Below, piece by piece: positions 9,545-47,425 of a DNA stretch of 64,000 nt. Made by a program: the position numbers and the translations under genes. Under the pieces are notes generated by a model. It did no database searches. It saw only the letters and a list, made by a program, of their open reading frames with translations, and had not been told where the DNA came from. Source of the DNA: a virus. The DNA is taken from positions 82,044 through 146,043 of IMG/VR virus record IMGVR_UViG_3300025011_000019; one strand, given 5' to 3'. Numbering within the stretch: position 1 is the first letter of the stretch; every line of letters begins with the position of its first letter.

Positions 9545-10426
9545 ATGATCAGACATGTAGGATTCGCTTGTATGAGTAAAAAATGCAATACAAAATATCA
9601 AATATTTAGATTAGCATCATTTAGTGAATACAGATTAAAACAAACAATTGCTCATAATCTAAAAGAAACTGAGCGTACAATCCAACATTGCATTTCTGAA
9701 GGAATTAAATTATTCAGAATCAGTTCTGATTTAGTTACATTTGTTACTCATGAAATTATGAAAGATATTGATTATATGTCTTGGATGCAATCTGATTTAA
9801 AAAGGATTGGTGATATAGCAAAAAATAATAATATGATATTGTCAATGCATCCTTCTCAAATGTGTGTATTATCAAGCAATAAAGATGAAGTTGTAAATAA
9901 TTCTATCAAAGATTTAATTTATCATTATGATATTCTTAATGCTATGGGCCTTGATGATTTTAATATTATAATTCATGCTGGTGGAGTTTATGGGAATAAA
10001 AGTGAAGCAATGAAGAGATTTATTAATGTTTTCAATAGTTTGCCTTTGGAATTGAGAAATCATATCTTGCTAGAGAATGATGACAAAAGTTATACTGTAA
10101 GTGATGTAATGAGAATACATCGAGAAACTGGAGTCAGAGCTGTGTTAGATATACATCATATGTACTGCAATAATGATGGTACAGAATTAGATTTAGAAGC
10201 CATATTTGCTACTTGGAAGGATGGTAGAGTACCTAAGATTCATCTTAGTTCACCAAAGAGTATTGAAGCGTTTAGAAGTCATTCTGACATGATTGATTAT
10301 GAATATTGTAGAGAGTTTTTTGAGAAGTATAAGGGATTAGAATTTGATGTAATGATTGAGGCAAAAGATAAGGATTTGGCTGTAGAGAAGTTTGTTGAGG
10401 ATTATAGGAGAGTGATATGTGAGTGA
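9545..10426 (+). CDS. uvsE: UV-damage endonuclease (UvsE/UVDE family)
   Basis: A TIM-barrel, metal-dependent endonuclease that nicks DNA 5' of UV photoproducts and starts alternative excision repair. The 293-aa length suits the bacterial family. Conserved features in order are the N-terminal RHVGFACMS, MHPSQM (residue about 100), IHAGGVYGNK (about 142), LENDDKSY (about 178), DIHHMYCNN (about 200), IHLSSPK (about 228) and a final IEAKDK (about 278), which supply the expected His, Glu and Asp metal ligands. An inverted repeat lies directly upstream. It probably protects the phage genome from UV. Confidence 0.9.
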   Translation: MIRHVGFACMSKKCNTKYQIFRLASFSEYRLKQTIAHNLKETERTIQHCISEGIKLFRISSDLVTFVTHEIMKDIDYMSWMQSDLKRIGDIAKNNNMILSMHPSQMCVLSSNKDEVVNNSIKDLIYHYDILNAMGLDDFNIIIHAGGVYGNKSEAMKRFINVFNSLPLELRNHILLENDDKSYTVSDVMRIHRETGVRAVLDIHHMYCNNDGTELDLEAIFATWKDGRVPKIHLSSPKSIEAFRSHSDMIDYEYCREFFEKYKGLEFDVMIEAKDKDLAVEKFVEDYRRVICE

Positions 10427-15260: not shown

Positions 15261-15431
15261 TTGTGGGAGATATTTTTTAAATTATTATTATTTATAATTA
15301 TAGGTTTTGTTTTGTCTTTTGGTGGATCATATTTTATATGTTATTCAAATATAAATGTTTTTGTATTCGCAATTGTTGTATCAATAGGTGGATTCATAAT
15401 GTATAAAGCAGGAAGAAGTCTTATAAGTTAA
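15261..15431 (+). CDS. Small membrane protein, 56 aa
   Basis: TTG start just after the preceding gene. Two hydrophobic segments (residues about 5-27 and 32-48) predict two spans, with a basic tail (YKAGRSLIS). GGGAGAG may serve as ribosome binding site. Confidence 0.5.
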   Translation: MWEIFFKLLLFIIIGFVLSFGGSYFICYSNINVFVFAIVVSIGGFIMYKAGRSLIS

Positions 15432-15469
15432 AAAAAATATTTTATCGAGCTTAAATCAATAAATAATTA

Positions 15470-15498
15470 TTGACAAATTACTATAAACATGTTATTAT
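15470..15498 (+). promoter_or_regulatory. Consensus sigma-A promoter of the pentamer-array operon
   Basis: TTGACA, exactly 17 bases and TATTAT. It is the only obvious promoter before the RAMP-like gene and the two arrays, all in the same direction with no evident terminator between, so the arrays are probably transcribed from here. Confidence 0.78.
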
Positions 15499-15544
15499 TT
15501 ACTTGTAAGAAATAAATAATTAAAAAGAAAGAGGGAGTTTAAAA

Positions 15545-16123
15545 ATGAAAAAACTTAAAGTTACATGGAAAGGTATTACCCCATTAATTATGCACTCAAA
15601 CCAAGGAGTTAACCCACTTCATCCTCTAACTAAGGAACTAAAGAAATATACGGGTAAGAGAACAAAAACTGACGAAGATCATGAAATGATTGCAGACTTA
15701 GAATGGGAATGTGGTCTGTATTGGAAGGATAATATGGGAACTTTTATGCCAGCAGAAAATGTAGAGGCCACAATTAGAAATGGAGCTAAGTCTATTAAGA
15801 AAGGCACAGCTATTCAGAAATTCTTATCAGTTGAACCGTTATACATACCTTTTGCATATGGTGAAAATCTTACCAAAGAACAATTGAAAGCAGATTTAAA
15901 GTATAGAGATGTTAGAGTTATGAAAGTAAATAATGCTTCAATTTTAAGAACTAGAGCAAGATTTGACACATGGCAAGTTACATTCTTTGTAAATTATGAA
16001 GAGTCTCAAATTGATCTAGAAGCTGTAATTCAAAGCATTGATTTTGCAGGGAAATATGTAGGACTGTGTGATAGTAGACCTAAGTATGGACAGTTTGTAG
16101 CTGTAGTCGAAGAAGTAGAGTAA
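15545..16123 (+). CDS. Conserved phage protein next to pentamer arrays (possible RAMP/Cas7-like fold)
   Basis: A 192-residue protein. Features I recognise as belonging to a family seen in many phages are an N-terminal strand with TPLIMHSNQG, the HPLTKE block, a central PAENVEATIRNGAK helix, the YRDVRVMKV strand and a C-terminal GKYVGLCDSRPKYGQF block. The order strand - glycine-rich C-terminal block, and the short length, suggest a ferredoxin-like RNA-binding fold like Cas7/Cas5 (RAMP). This is an inference that needs structure prediction. It is the first gene after a strong promoter, and its stop codon abuts the first pentamer tract, arguing for a functional link with the array RNA. Confidence 0.6.
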   Translation: MKKLKVTWKGITPLIMHSNQGVNPLHPLTKELKKYTGKRTKTDEDHEMIADLEWECGLYWKDNMGTFMPAENVEATIRNGAKSIKKGTAIQKFLSVEPLYIPFAYGENLTKEQLKADLKYRDVRVMKVNNASILRTRARFDTWQVTFFVNYEESQIDLEAVIQSIDFAGKYVGLCDSRPKYGQFVAVVEEVE

Positions 16124-16517
16124 GATATGATTTTTAGGTTCTGTTGGGTTGGGGCGAGTTAAGATGGGATAGGGCAAGCTACGATAAGTTAAGCAATATA
16201 TGCTACGTTACGTCGAGATAAAATGCGTTATGATAAGTTTGGCCGAGTTAAGTTGAGCAATATATGTTCAGTTTCGTTGAGTAGGGTTTGGGTGGGTTTG
16301 GATATGCTTTGATGAGTATTTTAGGTTCAGTTTCGCTCTGTTGCGTTATGATTGGATGGGATAAGTTCTGTTATGTATTTTAAGTTGGGATATGATTAGA
16401 TATGTTCAGTTGCGTCTTGAATGTGATGAGTTTGGTTTTGTTAGGCATTTTAGGATCAGTTGTGTTGAGATGGGTTTCGTTGAGGTACGATACGCTGTGA
16501 TTTGATAGGCATTATGG
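16124..16517 (+). repeat. Pentamer array 1: six tracts of GNTNN units with 9-nt linkers
   Basis: Directly after the upstream stop codon the sequence is built of 5-base units, mostly G-T/A-T-N-N. Tracts are 16138-16192 (11 units), 16202-16256 (11), 16266-16315 (10), 16325-16374 (10), 16384-16444 (12 units plus one extra T at 16424) and 16454-16508 (11). They are separated by 9-base linkers at 16129, 16193, 16257, 16316, 16375, 16445 and 16509 (such as GCAATATAT, GTATTTTAG, GCATTTTAG). No reading frame crosses it. Unlike CRISPR there are no identical direct repeats: position 1 is constant, position 3 nearly so, and positions 4 and 5 vary. Probably a non-coding RNA or a dense protein-binding array. 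Confidence 0.9.
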
Positions 16518-16548
16518 GCAAAATAAGAATAATAAAGGAGATATAAGA

Positions 16549-17013
16549 ATGAATGAATTAGTAAATAAAAAAGAAAAATGGGAATTACTATTTGAGTATA
16601 TTGTAAAAATGGATTATGACACTACGATATTACATAGTGAAATTGAAGAGGTTATTAAAGAAAGTCAAAATACACCTAAATATTATTCTATTATTGGTAA
16701 AACAAAAAAGAAATTACTTGAATCAAGTAAAACTATTAAATCCTTAGCAGGTCAAGGATATTCAATTGTTAATCCAGATGAATATACTGATATGTCTTTA
16801 AAACATATTAAGAGTGGTTTTAATAAGATTGATAAAGGGTATCAAGTATTACAATATGCTCCTGTTAATGAAATGTCAAAAGAGGGATTGGAGGCATTTA
16901 GGCATGTTTCTGATAGAGCAAAAACACTTCATGCTATGCTTGCTGGAGGATGTACAGAATTAAAATTGTTAAATAAAAAGAAGAGTAAATTGGTATTAAG
17001 TAATAGTTTTTGA
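16549..17013 (+). CDS. Winged-helix-like phage protein between two pentamer arrays
   Basis: A 154-residue basic protein with an AAAGGAG site. Residues about 44-82 (YYSIIGKTKKKLLESSKTIK, then AGQGYSIVNPDEY) resemble the recognition helix and wing of OmpR-type winged helices. The C-terminal 60 residues are helical with a basic tail. I believe it belongs to a family often seen in phages, but the DNA- or RNA-binding role is inferred. It is enclosed by array 1 upstream and array 2 downstream, with both arrays ending within about 35 bases of its ends, so it is likely part of the same system. Confidence 0.6.
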   Translation: MNELVNKKEKWELLFEYIVKMDYDTTILHSEIEEVIKESQNTPKYYSIIGKTKKKLLESSKTIKSLAGQGYSIVNPDEYTDMSLKHIKSGFNKIDKGYQVLQYAPVNEMSKEGLEAFRHVSDRAKTLHAMLAGGCTELKLLNKKKSKLVLSNSF

Positions 17014-17017
17014 TTAA

Positions 17018-17109
17018 GATAAGCATTTTGGGTTTGGTTTAGATATGTTGGTTTGAGTTAAGTTGCGATGAGTTGTGTTAAGTTAGGTATTTTGAGTTAA
17101 GTATTTATA
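17018..17109 (+). repeat. Pentamer array 2: one tract of 11 GNTNN units
   Basis: Four bases after the preceding stop codon comes one unit (GATAA), a linker GCATTTTGG (17023-17031), 11 pentamers (17032-17086), linker GTATTTTGA (17087-17095), one unit GTTAA, and a degenerate final linker GTATTTATA. Ten of 11 units start with G and all 11 have T at position 3. The architecture is the same as in array 1, showing the pattern is maintained and not a chance low-complexity region. Confidence 0.88.
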
Positions 17110-17206
17110 AATCTTTAAAAAATTAAGGGACAGTTGATTATGTTTGTAATGGTGATGATTTATGCTATGGTTTATAAGTTATTATTGGTGTAAAGGAGAG
17201 GTTAGT

Positions 17207-17494
17207 ATGAAGAAATCAGTTGAATTTATAGGTAAGCCCACAGGAGATGGAGAATGTTTTTGTTGGGAAGTAGATGAAGAGAATTTTATGAAGGCAACGA
17301 ATGAAGTACCAGATGAGATTATGGATTATATTGGTGGAAAATATTCGCATAAAGATGGGAAATTTATTGGAGGCAAATTAATGGTTTATCCCAATAGTAT
17401 TTTTTCAGAAATGTATCTTGACAATGAAGAAATATATAGACATAAAATTCAAAAGAAAATGAGGATTAAAATTAGTTTTGAAGAATTAGATTGA
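17207..17494 (+). CDS. Hypothetical protein, 95 aa
   Basis: Not recognised. ATG at 17207 behind AAAGGAGAGG. Beta-rich, ending in an acidic KISFEELD. It follows array 2 and may be on the same transcript. Confidence 0.6.
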   Translation: MKKSVEFIGKPTGDGECFCWEVDEENFMKATNEVPDEIMDYIGGKYSHKDGKFIGGKLMVYPNSIFSEMYLDNEEIYRHKIQKKMRIKISFEELD

Positions 17495-23686: not shown

Positions 23687-23732
23687 ATAATAATTATCAC
23701 AAGGTTAAATAAGAAGGAGTGATAATTATTAT
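23687..23732 (+). promoter_or_regulatory. 14-bp inverted repeat covering the MazF start
   Basis: ATAATAATTATCAC (23687-23700) pairs perfectly with GTGATAATTATTAT (23719-23732). The 18-base loop contains AAGGAG, and the right arm ends in the first two bases of the ATG. In RNA this would hide the start codon; in DNA it could be an operator. Confidence 0.6.
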
Positions 23733-24141
23733 GCAAAATGTAATAAATAATGTTCAACAACCACAACAATTTAATCGAGGAGAGATATGGTTAGTTGATC
23801 TAGGAGAAGGCAAGGGATCTATCCAAGGAAAATTGCGTCCATGCATAATTGTAAGTAATAATATGGCAAATCGCTACAGTCCAGTTGTGCATATATGTCC
23901 AATTAGTTCTATCGGCACGAAGTCAAAATTACCAACTCACAAAAGCATAAATAAAAACTCTTCAGGACTATTAAGAGATTCTATTGCTCTCTGTGAACAA
24001 GTTATGTTAGTTAACAAAAATGAAGATATATTTTTGAAGAAAGTTGGATATTGTAATTCTGAAACTATGGAACGTATAAATCAAGGTATACTTATTCAAT
24101 TCTCAATAGGTCAGAAAGATAAGAATATTGTGTATGCATAA
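23731..24141 (+). CDS. MazF/PemK-like endoribonuclease, no antitoxin seen
   Basis: A 136-residue MazF-fold protein. RGEIWLVDLGEGKGSIQG is the first strand pair and loop, GKLRPCIIVSNN carries the conserved Arg, and CPISSIGTKSKLPTH carries the conserved Thr/Ser and basic loop. The usual ending is present (ERINQGILIQF). MazF proteins cut mRNA at short sites. No MazE-like gene lies upstream, where a small frameshifted gene and an inverted repeat are found instead. The ATG at 23731 is used rather than the GTG at 23719. Confidence 0.8.
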   Translation: MQNVINNVQQPQQFNRGEIWLVDLGEGKGSIQGKLRPCIIVSNNMANRYSPVVHICPISSIGTKSKLPTHKSINKNSSGLLRDSIALCEQVMLVNKNEDIFLKKVGYCNSETMERINQGILIQFSIGQKDKNIVYA

Positions 24142-24162: not shown

Positions 24163-24222
24163 TTGAAAAATATAAAGTTATTAACAATTGGCAAAAAGGT
24201 GTTGCTAATTGTTAATAACTAA
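24163..24222 (+). CDS. Possible 19-aa leader peptide of the homing endonuclease
   Basis: A TTG-started frame (MKNIKLLTIGKKVLLIVNN) behind AAAAGGAGAAGGA runs through a 13-bp hairpin and overlaps the downstream start codon in another frame. Ribosomes reading it would open the hairpin, so it could act as a translational switch. Confidence 0.4.
   Translation: MKNIKLLTIGKKVLLIVNN
24177..24219 (+). promoter_or_regulatory. 13-bp hairpin enclosing the endonuclease start
   Basis: GTTATTAACAATT (24177-24189) and AATTGTTAATAAC (24207-24219) are perfectly complementary with a 17-base loop. The loop has AAAAAGGTG, and the TTG start at 24209 lies in the right arm, so translation would be blocked when it is folded. 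Confidence 0.6.
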
Positions 24223-27775: not shown

Positions 27776-27838
27776 TATACTATCAGTTAAAGAAAATTAT
27801 TTTATATCTTATTAAATATGAAAAGGATGTGCATTATT

Positions 27839-28642
27839 ATGTTCAACAAATTATTTGCCAAATCAACTAATACCACCAACACTGAGGTAAATGCCAAAAA
27901 GGATTTTAAGAAACTAGCTAGTTTAATTATGCTTGCTAAAGGAACCCATAGGACAATCAATAATTTTGGAGCAGACTGCAAAATTGAAGGAGGGTACATA
28001 GAACTTATCGTTCGTGAAAAAATAAATGTTTATCCGAACGTTCAAACCCTCAATGTTTTCGCAAATAATTCAGAAGGTAGGGTTTCGTTGCAGGATCTAA
28101 AAATAGCATGTGGATACTCTTTATATGCAAATAATGATTTAGAGCAAATAAAAAATATTCGTGTCAGAAGAGGAGATTTTTGTTTCGCAGACTTTGGTGA
28201 CAAAGGGATAGATAGTGAAGTAGGCGGCCCAAGAATGGTGCTTGTGGTGCAAAATAATAAGGGGAATGCTTGCTCTAGCAACTCTATTGTCATAGCGATG
28301 ACAACTAGATCCAAAGCTAAGATGCCGACTCACGTTTTCGCAAGCAGTAAAGAATGTAATATCCCACAGGACTCTATTATATGTTGTGAATTACCAAACA
28401 CAATATCAAAAAGAAGATTAATAGGAAAGAATGGAGTATTTCAAAAAGTCGCTGAATGTCCTTCAAATATAATGTTGAAAGTTGAAATTGCCCTTATGAA
28501 ATCTGAGGGTATTTTAGAATTACATGTAAACGAAGAGGAAGCAATAGAGACTTTGAAAAATCTAAATAAAGTTAAACCAATCAGACAGAATATACAAGAA
28601 AATAATTATACTAGTGTAGGGCAACAGGTGGCTTATGCATGA
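27839..28642 (+). CDS. MazF-domain protein with N-terminal extension, upstream of agrB
   Basis: A 267-residue protein. Residues about 1-100 are a basic domain of unknown type (KKDFKKLASLIMLAKGTHR). Residues about 105-235 have a MazF/PemK fold (VRRGDFCFADFG, GGPRMVLVVQNN with the conserved Arg, IAMTTRSKAKMPTH with the conserved Thr). The tail is helical. The ATG at 27839 follows AAAAGGATG. It is co-transcribed with agrB and the second AgrC-like gene, a position where a response regulator would normally be expected. It could be the intracellular effector of the peptide signal, or a toxin guarded by it. Confidence 0.72.
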   Translation: MFNKLFAKSTNTTNTEVNAKKDFKKLASLIMLAKGTHRTINNFGADCKIEGGYIELIVREKINVYPNVQTLNVFANNSEGRVSLQDLKIACGYSLYANNDLEQIKNIRVRRGDFCFADFGDKGIDSEVGGPRMVLVVQNNKGNACSSNSIVIAMTTRSKAKMPTHVFASSKECNIPQDSIICCELPNTISKRRLIGKNGVFQKVAECPSNIMLKVEIALMKSEGILELHVNEEEAIETLKNLNKVKPIRQNIQENNYTSVGQQVAYA

Positions 28643-43910: not shown

Positions 43911-44999
43911 TTGGCAAGTTTAAATAATAGAGTTGGAGAAGTAGGATTCAATAAAGAAGGAAAAGAAATGGAAATTGTTGATTATCAAAATTGTGATAAT
44001 GTAATAGTAAAATTTCTAGTTAGTGGAAATTGCATTCACACGCAATATGGAAACTTTAAGAGAGGAAAAGTAAAAGACGATAATCAAGCAAAAATATTTA
44101 AAGATACAAAAATAAAGAATAAGACACCGAAACAACAGAGTATTAAAGTAATAAATACGCATGAGATGTATAAATTAAATCATAGGATTAATAATCAAGG
44201 AATAGTAGAAAGAAGATGTACAATATGTGAGAATTGGTTAGAAGAAAATTATGATAATTTCTATATGATAAATAAAAAGAAACCCGAACTGGGATATTCT
44301 TCGGGATGTAAAATTTGTCTTACTGCAAAATCAATAGCACACAGACTTTTAAATGTTGAAAGAGCAAGAAAAAGTATTCAAGATCATTATTATAGACATA
44401 AAGAAATTTATAATACTAGAGCAAAAGCTTATAATAAAGAACATAAAGATAAAGTAATTAGTGATTATAAGATATGGGTAAAAAACAATCCAGATAAAGT
44501 AAGAATATATACAGCCAATCATCGCGACCACGATATTTCAGAAGAAGAATGGCGTAGTTGTTTGAGTATATTTGATTATAGTTGTGCATATTGTAGTATT
44601 TCTGAAAAAGATCATCTTGTTATACATGGTCAAGTATTACATAAAGAACATTCCGATCCCGAAGGTTATAATGATTTAAGTAATGCTATTCCTGCTTGTA
44701 GACGATGTAATTGTGGCAAACATACAAGCAATATGGAAGAATGGTATAGAAAGCAAGACTATTTCGATAAAGAAATGTTATCATTTATTAGATGGTGGTT
44801 GGATGAAGGGCATAAAGAATTTATCGAAGATAAACCTCCTTATAAAGTCAAAAGAAAAAGAATAGAAGGATTGACTACATATTTTTATCAATTATGGTCT
44901 GTGGATGAGAAAAGAAATACAATCGAAGTCCTTGCTACTGGTAAAAAGAAAAAGGATTTAGATATACATATTGAGACATTATTTAAAATTATTAAATAA
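43911..44999 (+). CDS. HNH homing-type endonuclease (with zinc finger), copy 1
   Basis: 362 residues, TTG start after AAAAGGAGA. A Cys knuckle (CTICENWLEENYDNFY, about residue 105, and CKIC about 135) is followed by a basic helical linker. The HNH core has CAYCSISEKDH (about 227), LHKEHSDPEGYNDLSN (about 243) and CRRCNCGKH (about 265). Close in layout to the protein at 57063, including the EEWY and ENPLY/DKPPYKV-like C-terminal region. HNH enzymes nick or cut DNA; phage copies of this kind are usually mobile intruders. Confidence 0.82.
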   Translation: MASLNNRVGEVGFNKEGKEMEIVDYQNCDNVIVKFLVSGNCIHTQYGNFKRGKVKDDNQAKIFKDTKIKNKTPKQQSIKVINTHEMYKLNHRINNQGIVERRCTICENWLEENYDNFYMINKKKPELGYSSGCKICLTAKSIAHRLLNVERARKSIQDHYYRHKEIYNTRAKAYNKEHKDKVISDYKIWVKNNPDKVRIYTANHRDHDISEEEWRSCLSIFDYSCAYCSISEKDHLVIHGQVLHKEHSDPEGYNDLSNAIPACRRCNCGKHTSNMEEWYRKQDYFDKEMLSFIRWWLDEGHKEFIEDKPPYKVKRKRIEGLTTYFYQLWSVDEKRNTIEVLATGKKKKDLDIHIETLFKIIK

Positions 45000-47361: not shown

Positions 47362-47425
47362 TGTATATAAAAACAAATAATAAATAAATTAGTGGAGAAC
47401 TTGCAAGTTGTAGAGCGTGGCTACG

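Follow-up and report, generated by a model that had tools for sequence, protein, structure and literature searches.

A stretch of viral DNA of 64,000 nucleotides, here called the window, very likely (probability about 0.92) carries a VIPR system in a diverged and compact form. The homology of its two proteins to Vipr and Vap1, the RAMP fold of the modelled Vipr, the recurrence of pentamer arrays beside vipr and the gapped matches of four guides are shown. Expression, binding and silencing are inferred by analogy to the VIPR of SUSP1, an Escherichia phage. VIPR, a relative of CRISPR that phages use in conflicts with one another, was first reported in a 2026 preprint (PMC13142463), which also reports a RAMP fold for Vipr; in the open-access literature searched, it is the sole paper on Vipr with vrRNA. 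The initial annotation, made without database searches, had known of no described system to which the region could be assigned with confidence. This claim failed, since VIPR exists. The published system is characterized by 9-16 tandem pentamers, each composed of a constant triplet and a variable dinucleotide with the consensus GGY/NN or a related one; the repeats are followed by an invariant 3' tail, whose structure is described for one clade (PMC13142463).

The virus record from which the window is taken measures 146 kb. The same vipr protein is carried by a 227-kb and a 58-kb contig, and 1250 bases from position 16001 are identical in both. The phage is a large one and probably belongs to Bacillota, because its own YonO-like frame, located outside the window, is 52.6% identical to YonO of SPbeta-like Bacillus phages and a vipr relative at 61% sits in a Clostridia MAG. 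A second vipr contig (L072, IMG 3300025012_000165), whose product is 40% identical to the window's Vipr, bears the same IMG dataset number as one of the contigs identical to the window (L001).

The locus and its pentamer arrays

The region from 16124 to 17109 comprises 76 pentamers in seven tracts, T1 to T7. Their numbers had originally been obtained by hand, and a scripted recount confirmed them exactly: G occupies position 1 in 74/76 units and T position 3 in 69/76; position 2 is T in 43 and A in 23 of the 76, while positions 4 and 5 are mixed. The claimed tracts of 10, 11 or 12 units with 9-nt linkers held as well. From T1 to T7 the tracts contain 11, 11, 10, 10, 12, 11 and 11 units and start at 16138, 16202, 16266, 16325, 16384, 16454 and 17032. 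Every one of them is directly followed at its 3' side by a 9-nt linker, and a linker-like 9-mer is also found ahead of each array (16129, 17023). Downstream of vipr (15545-16123) come six tracts, then a vap1-like gene (16549-17013) and one further tract; this 154-aa gene thus splits the pentamer stretch into two arrays. The features are:

15470 to 15498, plus strand: possible promoter upstream of vipr, TTGACA-17-TATTAT with TG before the -10 element; weak
15545 to 16123, plus strand: vipr, 192-aa RAMP (Cas7-like) protein, phrog_4652, by homology and model
16124 to 16137, plus strand: one unit and the linker-like 9-mer GATTTTTAG (16129-16137), ahead of T1
16138 to 16192, plus strand: tract T1, 11 GNTNN units, undecoded, chance-level match only
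16193 to 16201, plus strand: 9-nt linker GCAATATAT after T1
16202 to 16256, plus strand: tract T2, 11 units; units 1-10 read TTENAMKWEK in phrog_8308 (YonO family) genes, sense
16257 to 16265, plus strand: 9-nt linker GCAATATAT after T2
16266 to 16315, plus strand: tract T3, 10 units; units 1-9 match 17/18 bases of HSDGCGWIL codons in the YonO homologue L266, sense
16316 to 16324, plus strand: 9-nt linker GTATTTTAG after T3
16325 to 16374, plus strand: tract T4, 10 units; units 1-9 match 18/18 bases of RFPHIAREW codons in the phrog_8308 gene of L126, antisense
16375 to 16383, plus strand: 9-nt linker GTATTTTAA after T4
16384 to 16444, plus strand: tract T5, 12 units including a 6-nt one, undecoded
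16445 to 16453, plus strand: 9-nt linker GCATTTTAG after T5
16454 to 16508, plus strand: tract T6, 11 units; units 1-10 read QVEGSETTVF in SU10-type major capsid genes, sense
16509 to 16517, plus strand: 9-nt linker GCATTATGG after T6
16549 to 17013, plus strand: vap1-like gene, 154 aa (hhalign 92.6%, E 4.6e-7)
17012 to 17031, plus strand: two units and the linker GCATTTTGG (17023-17031), ahead of the second array
17032 to 17086, plus strand: tract T7, 11 units, undecoded
17087 to 17095, plus strand: 9-nt linker GTATTTTGA after T7
17096 to 17109, plus strand: one unit and the linker-like end GTATTTATA

The pattern exceeds chance. Exact G.T.. runs of at least four units hold 37 units, as compared to a mean of 0.23 and a maximum of 9 in 2000 dinucleotide shuffles of 16124-16517. 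Elsewhere on the plus strand of the window (63,014 bases) such runs hold 8 units, on the reverse strand 0. Within the tracts the last one or two units preceding the linker are biased to AA/AG, as seen in 23 tracts from four genomes: two-purine dinucleotides make up 78% at unit -1, 70% at unit -2 and 18-52% at units -3 to -12. The promoter-like site at 15470 is the best of 13 sites found, and shuffles average 13.5 sites.

Other identities of the region could be dismissed. A CRISPR array and a simple tandem repeat had already been excluded by the initial annotation, and both exclusions held: there are no identical repeats separating contiguous spacers but a pentamer structure instead, and TRF lists no array at the pentamer region. 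Its verdict that the region is non-coding held for the first array, which is free of frames of at least 50 aa except for a 53-aa minus-strand frame reaching into T1, but 16549-17013 is a gene. Rfam gave no match at E 1 for 15400-17300. The 3' end of an array consists of the 9-nt linker and the biased last unit only, which seems to leave no room for a structured tail as in SUSP1. The consensus required for membership in VIPR is met in its related form (10-12 units, G(T/A)T), not as GGY. As a side aspect, the first two units of T3 (16266) and T4 (16325) are identical (GTTCA GTTTC), as if one tract were a partial copy of the other.

Vipr, its neighbour and the recurrence of the arrays

The 192-aa product of the gene at 15545 shares 30% identity with SUSP1 Vipr (E 1.6e-27) and matches 129 phage records over at least 80% of the query. 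An AF2 model built from 46 sequences reached a pLDDT of 94.1 and a pTM of 0.87, a single-sequence model a pLDDT of 33.3 only. The best Foldseek matches of the Vipr model are Csm subunits and type VII Cas7, and VIA-align (Z 11.3) points to the backbones of Csm, Cmr and type VII Cas7. The model therefore predicts a Cas7-type RAMP. Another feature of VIPR loci, a small RAMP (about 20 kDa) with homology to known Viprs, is accordingly present. A Pfam match to JHBP stayed below the cut-off and is taken as spurious. PADLOC did not recognize the two locus proteins of the window, nor the two of SUSP1, and none of the five neighbouring proteins scanned belongs to a cas family.

The vap gene to be expected in such a locus is also present. 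The 154-aa product of 16549-17013 is related to Vap1 homologues including that of SUSP1 according to hhalign (92.6%, E 4.6e-7), though its identity to them is as low as 15-24% (23% to SUSP1 Vap1).

Co-occurrence of arrays with homologues of the 15545 gene had been named in advance as a test that could refute the pattern; the test was passed. A period-5 array lies at most 1.2 kb from vipr in 100/102 loci, whereas the controls yielded 0/66 for far flanks and 1/102 for block-shuffled flanks. An array, with its two constant columns, was called when the two best columns taken across nine units scored at least 16 of 18, and shuffling was done by dinucleotide blocks. The set comprised 102 of 104 vipr loci from the viral and genome collections; L001 and L002, being identical to the window, were left out, near-copies were kept, and the far flanks were long enough in 66 loci only. 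The two loci without an array are L034 and L003, the contig of the latter ending just behind the gene.

The constant bases vary by branch: GG in many loci, GA in L004 and L006-L008, G(T/A)T in the window. Together with L024, L048 and L049, the window forms one clade (support 100/99), apart from SUSP1, whose branch is long. These four share GNT units, a GYATTWTAR-like linker and a vap1-like gene 3' of the array, and there is no guide common to them. Positions 4 and 5 vary across all four genomes; positions 1 and 3 do not. A sister locus, L050 (IMG 3300005403), groups with the clade at 95/90. It resembles the window in having vipr, a vap1-like gene (hhalign 99.4% to that of the clade) and tracts spaced by a short linker, GGATTTCGT by eye, but differs by its GG(C/T)/NN units and by the position of the vap1-like gene upstream of vipr. 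Since L050 combines linkers with GGY units, the linker layout seems to be older than the change of the triplet to GNT. Arrays may also be remodelled: a 245-aa ORF resembling a DNA methyltransferase (SPPY motif, by eye) lies within the pentamer array of L007 (6012-6746), where the near-twin L006 (5960-6140) has tracts, which looks like array turnover.

Reading the guides

Guides were read by the rule of PMC13142463: per unit, the two variable bases are read and one base of the target is skipped. This rule was adopted, not chosen against other skip lengths in the collections. Only T2, T4, T6 and T7 were scanned in the viral collection. Searching the variable positions as gapped patterns had been proposed at the outset, and it was rewarding: four of the seven tracts (T2, T3, T4 and T6) match phage genes, and the skipped base in the decoded matches is the wobble position of the codon. 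A one-base skip at the wobble position is a further feature of VIPR membership; T2, T4 and T6 comply in the viral collection, T7 does not, and in bacterial genomes T3 complies but neither T1 nor T5. In the target genes of T2, T3, T4 and T6 the last unit is not matched. Together with the AA/AG bias of the 23 tracts, this suggests that the last unit is part of a handle.

The number of full matches expected by chance was reckoned from the 8-unit hits, treated as independent: 10 for T4, 16 outside SU10 genes for T6 and 23 outside the polymerase family for T2. The probability that two further units also fit by chance is 1 in 256, which gives 0.04-0.09 full matches per guide. Matches inside one gene family are, of course, not independent.

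The 8-unit pattern of T6 has 23 matches in the viral contigs. Six of them also fit units 1 and 10 (20/20 bases), and all six are SU10-type major capsid genes, matched in frame as QVEGSETTVF with a wobble base that varies among the six at 8/10 positions. No match outside the SU10 genes fits the units left out of the pattern. In 249 Bacillota genomes a single site was detected (19/20), again in an SU10 capsid gene, with 0 sites for the reversed control. With the last unit included, the T6 pattern has 0 matches in the viral contigs.

T2 points to a polymerase. Its 8-unit pattern occurs at 106 sites in 105 loci of the viral collection; 83 of these sites lie in genes similar to phrog_8308 queries, and 8 of the 83 match at 20/20 bases, reading TTENAMKWEK. 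Among the 23 other sites none reaches 20/20. In 71 of 80 loci considered, the base skipped is a wobble base in the longest frame. SPbeta YonO scores 1220 bits against phrog_8308, and the profile is therefore that of the YonO family. YonO is a DNA-dependent RNA polymerase (PMC5467207), as is also annotated for similar yonO genes. With this profile the scanned T2 targets score 3e-39 to 1e-109 and the T4 target 3e-93. Pairwise, the T2 targets are only weakly similar to YonO or to the L126 gene (YonO: hhalign 70%, E 4e-5; none at 1e-5 in another search); their family membership rests on the phrog_8308 profile, not on pairwise similarity. Among 152 loci not picked by T2, the family is found in L126 and in the phage's own record only.

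The 8-unit pattern of T4 has 10 matches, two of which, L126 and L122, are 18/18 over units 1-9. The site in L126 is antisense, with the skip at the wobble base, in a phrog_8308 gene that contains a DFDGD motif and resembles yonO genes with the annotation DNA-directed RNA polymerase. The match in L122 does not keep codon phase and is probably due to chance. As only one further unit was asked for, 0.6 chance matches at 18/18 are expected and two were seen; the decoding of T4 thus rests on its match falling in the YonO family. In 249 genomes T4 had 0 matches.

T3 came to light by a different route. Its best match in the phage's own record, 15/18, coincides in frame with the HTDGCG motif of the YonO gene encoded there and is equalled by 1/200 shuffled guides; the same motif in SPbeta YonO is matched at 14/18. 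Because of this weak in-frame match, 279 Bacillota genomes were searched with T3, which yielded three sites at 17/18 (L265, L266 and L267), the reversed control yielding 0. The site in L266, which reads HSDGCGWIL, keeps the reading frame of a YonO homologue (45% identity over 690 aa). For L265 and L267, no long gene contains the site in its frame. In 50 records T3 had no match; a 16/18 match in L052 is at chance level, since 1/40 shuffles reaches 16, and is out of codon phase. T2, T3 and T4 accordingly meet three different sites of one family, YonO, at 20/20, 17/18 and 18/18 bases. Records with the capsid gene amount to 7/18 and with the polymerase to 8/22, those with both to 0; the records are, however, fragmentary, and the search for polymerase records missed L126's own polymerase, i.e., it is insensitive to the distant branch.

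The remaining guides stay undecoded. T7 (17032) has no match in the viral contigs, the 50 records or 391 genomes. T1 finds one 19/20 site in 391 genomes, as does the reversed control, which is chance level. In 294 genomes T5 has four 19/22 sites, a number close to chance expectation by our reckoning, with 0 for the control. Units 6-10 of T5 (16384-16444) recall the AFCE(W) motif found in YonO, the phage's own and that of SPbeta (15/22); as a guide to this motif T5 was rejected, for 13/200 shuffles equal its best match there. The guides of L024, L048 and L049 perform no better than shuffles in the loci compared.

The phage's own genome is not matched well by any of its guides. When n-1 units are read with the one-base skip, each guide has at least 3 mismatches in the 146-kb record. 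T3 comes closest with its match in the YonO gene; the equivalent site of T4 shows 10/18. With a three-base skip the guides find themselves only. The closeness of T3 to the phage's own YonO leaves the sparing of self unexplained. The phage's own YonO-like frame (L019:15570-17303, minus strand) stops at 578 aa, ahead of the catalytic motif, which might reflect a split gene, an intron or a frameshift.

Proposed mechanism, rival explanations and related systems

By analogy to SUSP1, the arrays would be transcribed, probably together with vipr and vap1, and cleavage of the transcript at the 9-nt linkers would release RNAs of about 60-70 nt. Each G(T/A)T may be gripped by one Vipr subunit, which displays the two variable bases. 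The complex would then pair two bases and skip one, repeatedly along double-stranded DNA, with the last unit and the linker acting as a 3' handle. Binding is presumed to silence genes of competing phages in the same cell, three guides being aimed at YonO-type RNA polymerase genes and one at major capsid genes, and Vap1 would strengthen the silencing. With the wobble base skipped, one guide can fit a conserved protein motif in its many synonymous codings. The initial annotation had envisaged an RNA coated by protein and used as a discontinuous guide. This idea is supported by the Cas7-type RAMP model, the gapped matches of four tracts and the recurrence; the supposed single subunit per pentamer and the production of the RNA itself are merely inferred for the window phage.

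Alternatively, the array might be devoid of information: the RAMP could bind it as a structural or decoy RNA, or the pentamers could be DNA-binding repeats that regulate the operon, and the matches would be fortuitous. In favour of this view, three of seven guides are undecoded, expression data are lacking, and chance matches over 18 bases do occur, as in L122. We nevertheless consider it very improbable. Three guides that differ in sequence point to a single family, which for T3 had been predicted beforehand; units not included in the T2 and T6 patterns match in family genes only; the skip falls on the wobble base; and in the clade positions 4 and 5 are variable, 1 and 3 constant. No more can be said for the assumption that the same guides bind or cut the mRNA of a competitor. 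Csm and type VII Cas7 complexes target RNA, and the nearest solved folds are indeed Csm and type VII Cas7 subunits. However, T2, T3 and T6 read like the coding strand and so cannot pair with mRNA, T4 alone could, and the SUSP1 relative binds double-stranded DNA (PMC13142463). A mixture of three sense guides and one antisense guide suits a DNA target better than mRNA.

More difficult to dismiss is the possibility that the guides are aimed chiefly at close SPbeta-like relatives that share or superinfect the host, the matches in distant YonO proteins just reflecting conserved motifs. The phage's own YonO is of this type (52.6%), and T3 fits the SPbeta-type YonO best. T2 and T4, in contrast, fit distant branches and reach at best 13-14/20 and 11-12/18 in the SPbeta type, and we are inclined, if not strongly, to disbelieve this explanation. 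We retain the reading as a diverged VIPR system presumably directed against the DNA of competing phages. A bolder version has a slight edge over its negation in our opinion: the locus would represent a distinct VIPR subtype of Bacillota phages with a G(T/A)T code and CRISPR-like packing, in which linkers replace the tail as cleavage site and handle, the guides converge on the rivals' YonO polymerase (three sites) and capsid, and the phage's own diverged YonO escapes. The seven published VIPR types (PMC13142463) could already include this branch.

The resemblance to the type II VIPR of SUSP1 (PMC13142463) extends to a small RAMP, 30% identical, with vap1 adjoining, to tandem pentamers of constant and variable parts, to guides beside vipr and to the skipping of the wobble base. 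SUSP1 differs by GGY/NN units, RNAs of about 100 nt and a structured 3' tail, where the window has G(T/A)T/NN units, seven tracts and 9-nt linkers. Also, the targets in the main text of the preprint are satellites and prophage regulators, those of the window YonO-type RNA polymerase and major capsid genes. With class 1 CRISPR (types III and VII) the locus shares the Cas7/Csm3 backbone fold and a constant element flanking each guide, but it lacks identical repeats and contiguous spacers, its information residing in two bases out of five. TIGR-Tas (PMC12045711) is likewise a phage-borne RNA-guided array; its effector is Tas, found via the guide-binding domain of Cas9, while the effector in the window is a RAMP.

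As judged from sequence, the noncontiguous code of VIPR thus extends to a diverged branch with another triplet and apparently no structured tail. The natural targets of its guides would be core genes of rival phages, and three guides on one polymerase family would amount to multi-site targeting. If true, the locus offers a compact multi-guide array for testing how a RAMP reads gapped guides, which bears on how CRISPR originated.

Some other genes of the window may be mentioned. Homing-endonuclease-like ORFs occur at 24209, 43911, 47392 and 57063; the one at 47392 is GIY-YIG/NUMOD by Pfam, that at 24209 remains below the cut-off, and those at 43911 and 57063 were assigned by eye. PemK/MazF-like toxin domains (Pfam) are encoded at 23719-24141 and 27818-28642, the second with an N-terminal extension. 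A UV-endonuclease UvdE is encoded at 9545-10426. Between 17537 and 20630, a PRPP-synthetase-like gene (by eye) and a NAMPT gene (Pfam) lie near each other, which suggests phage-carried NAD salvage.
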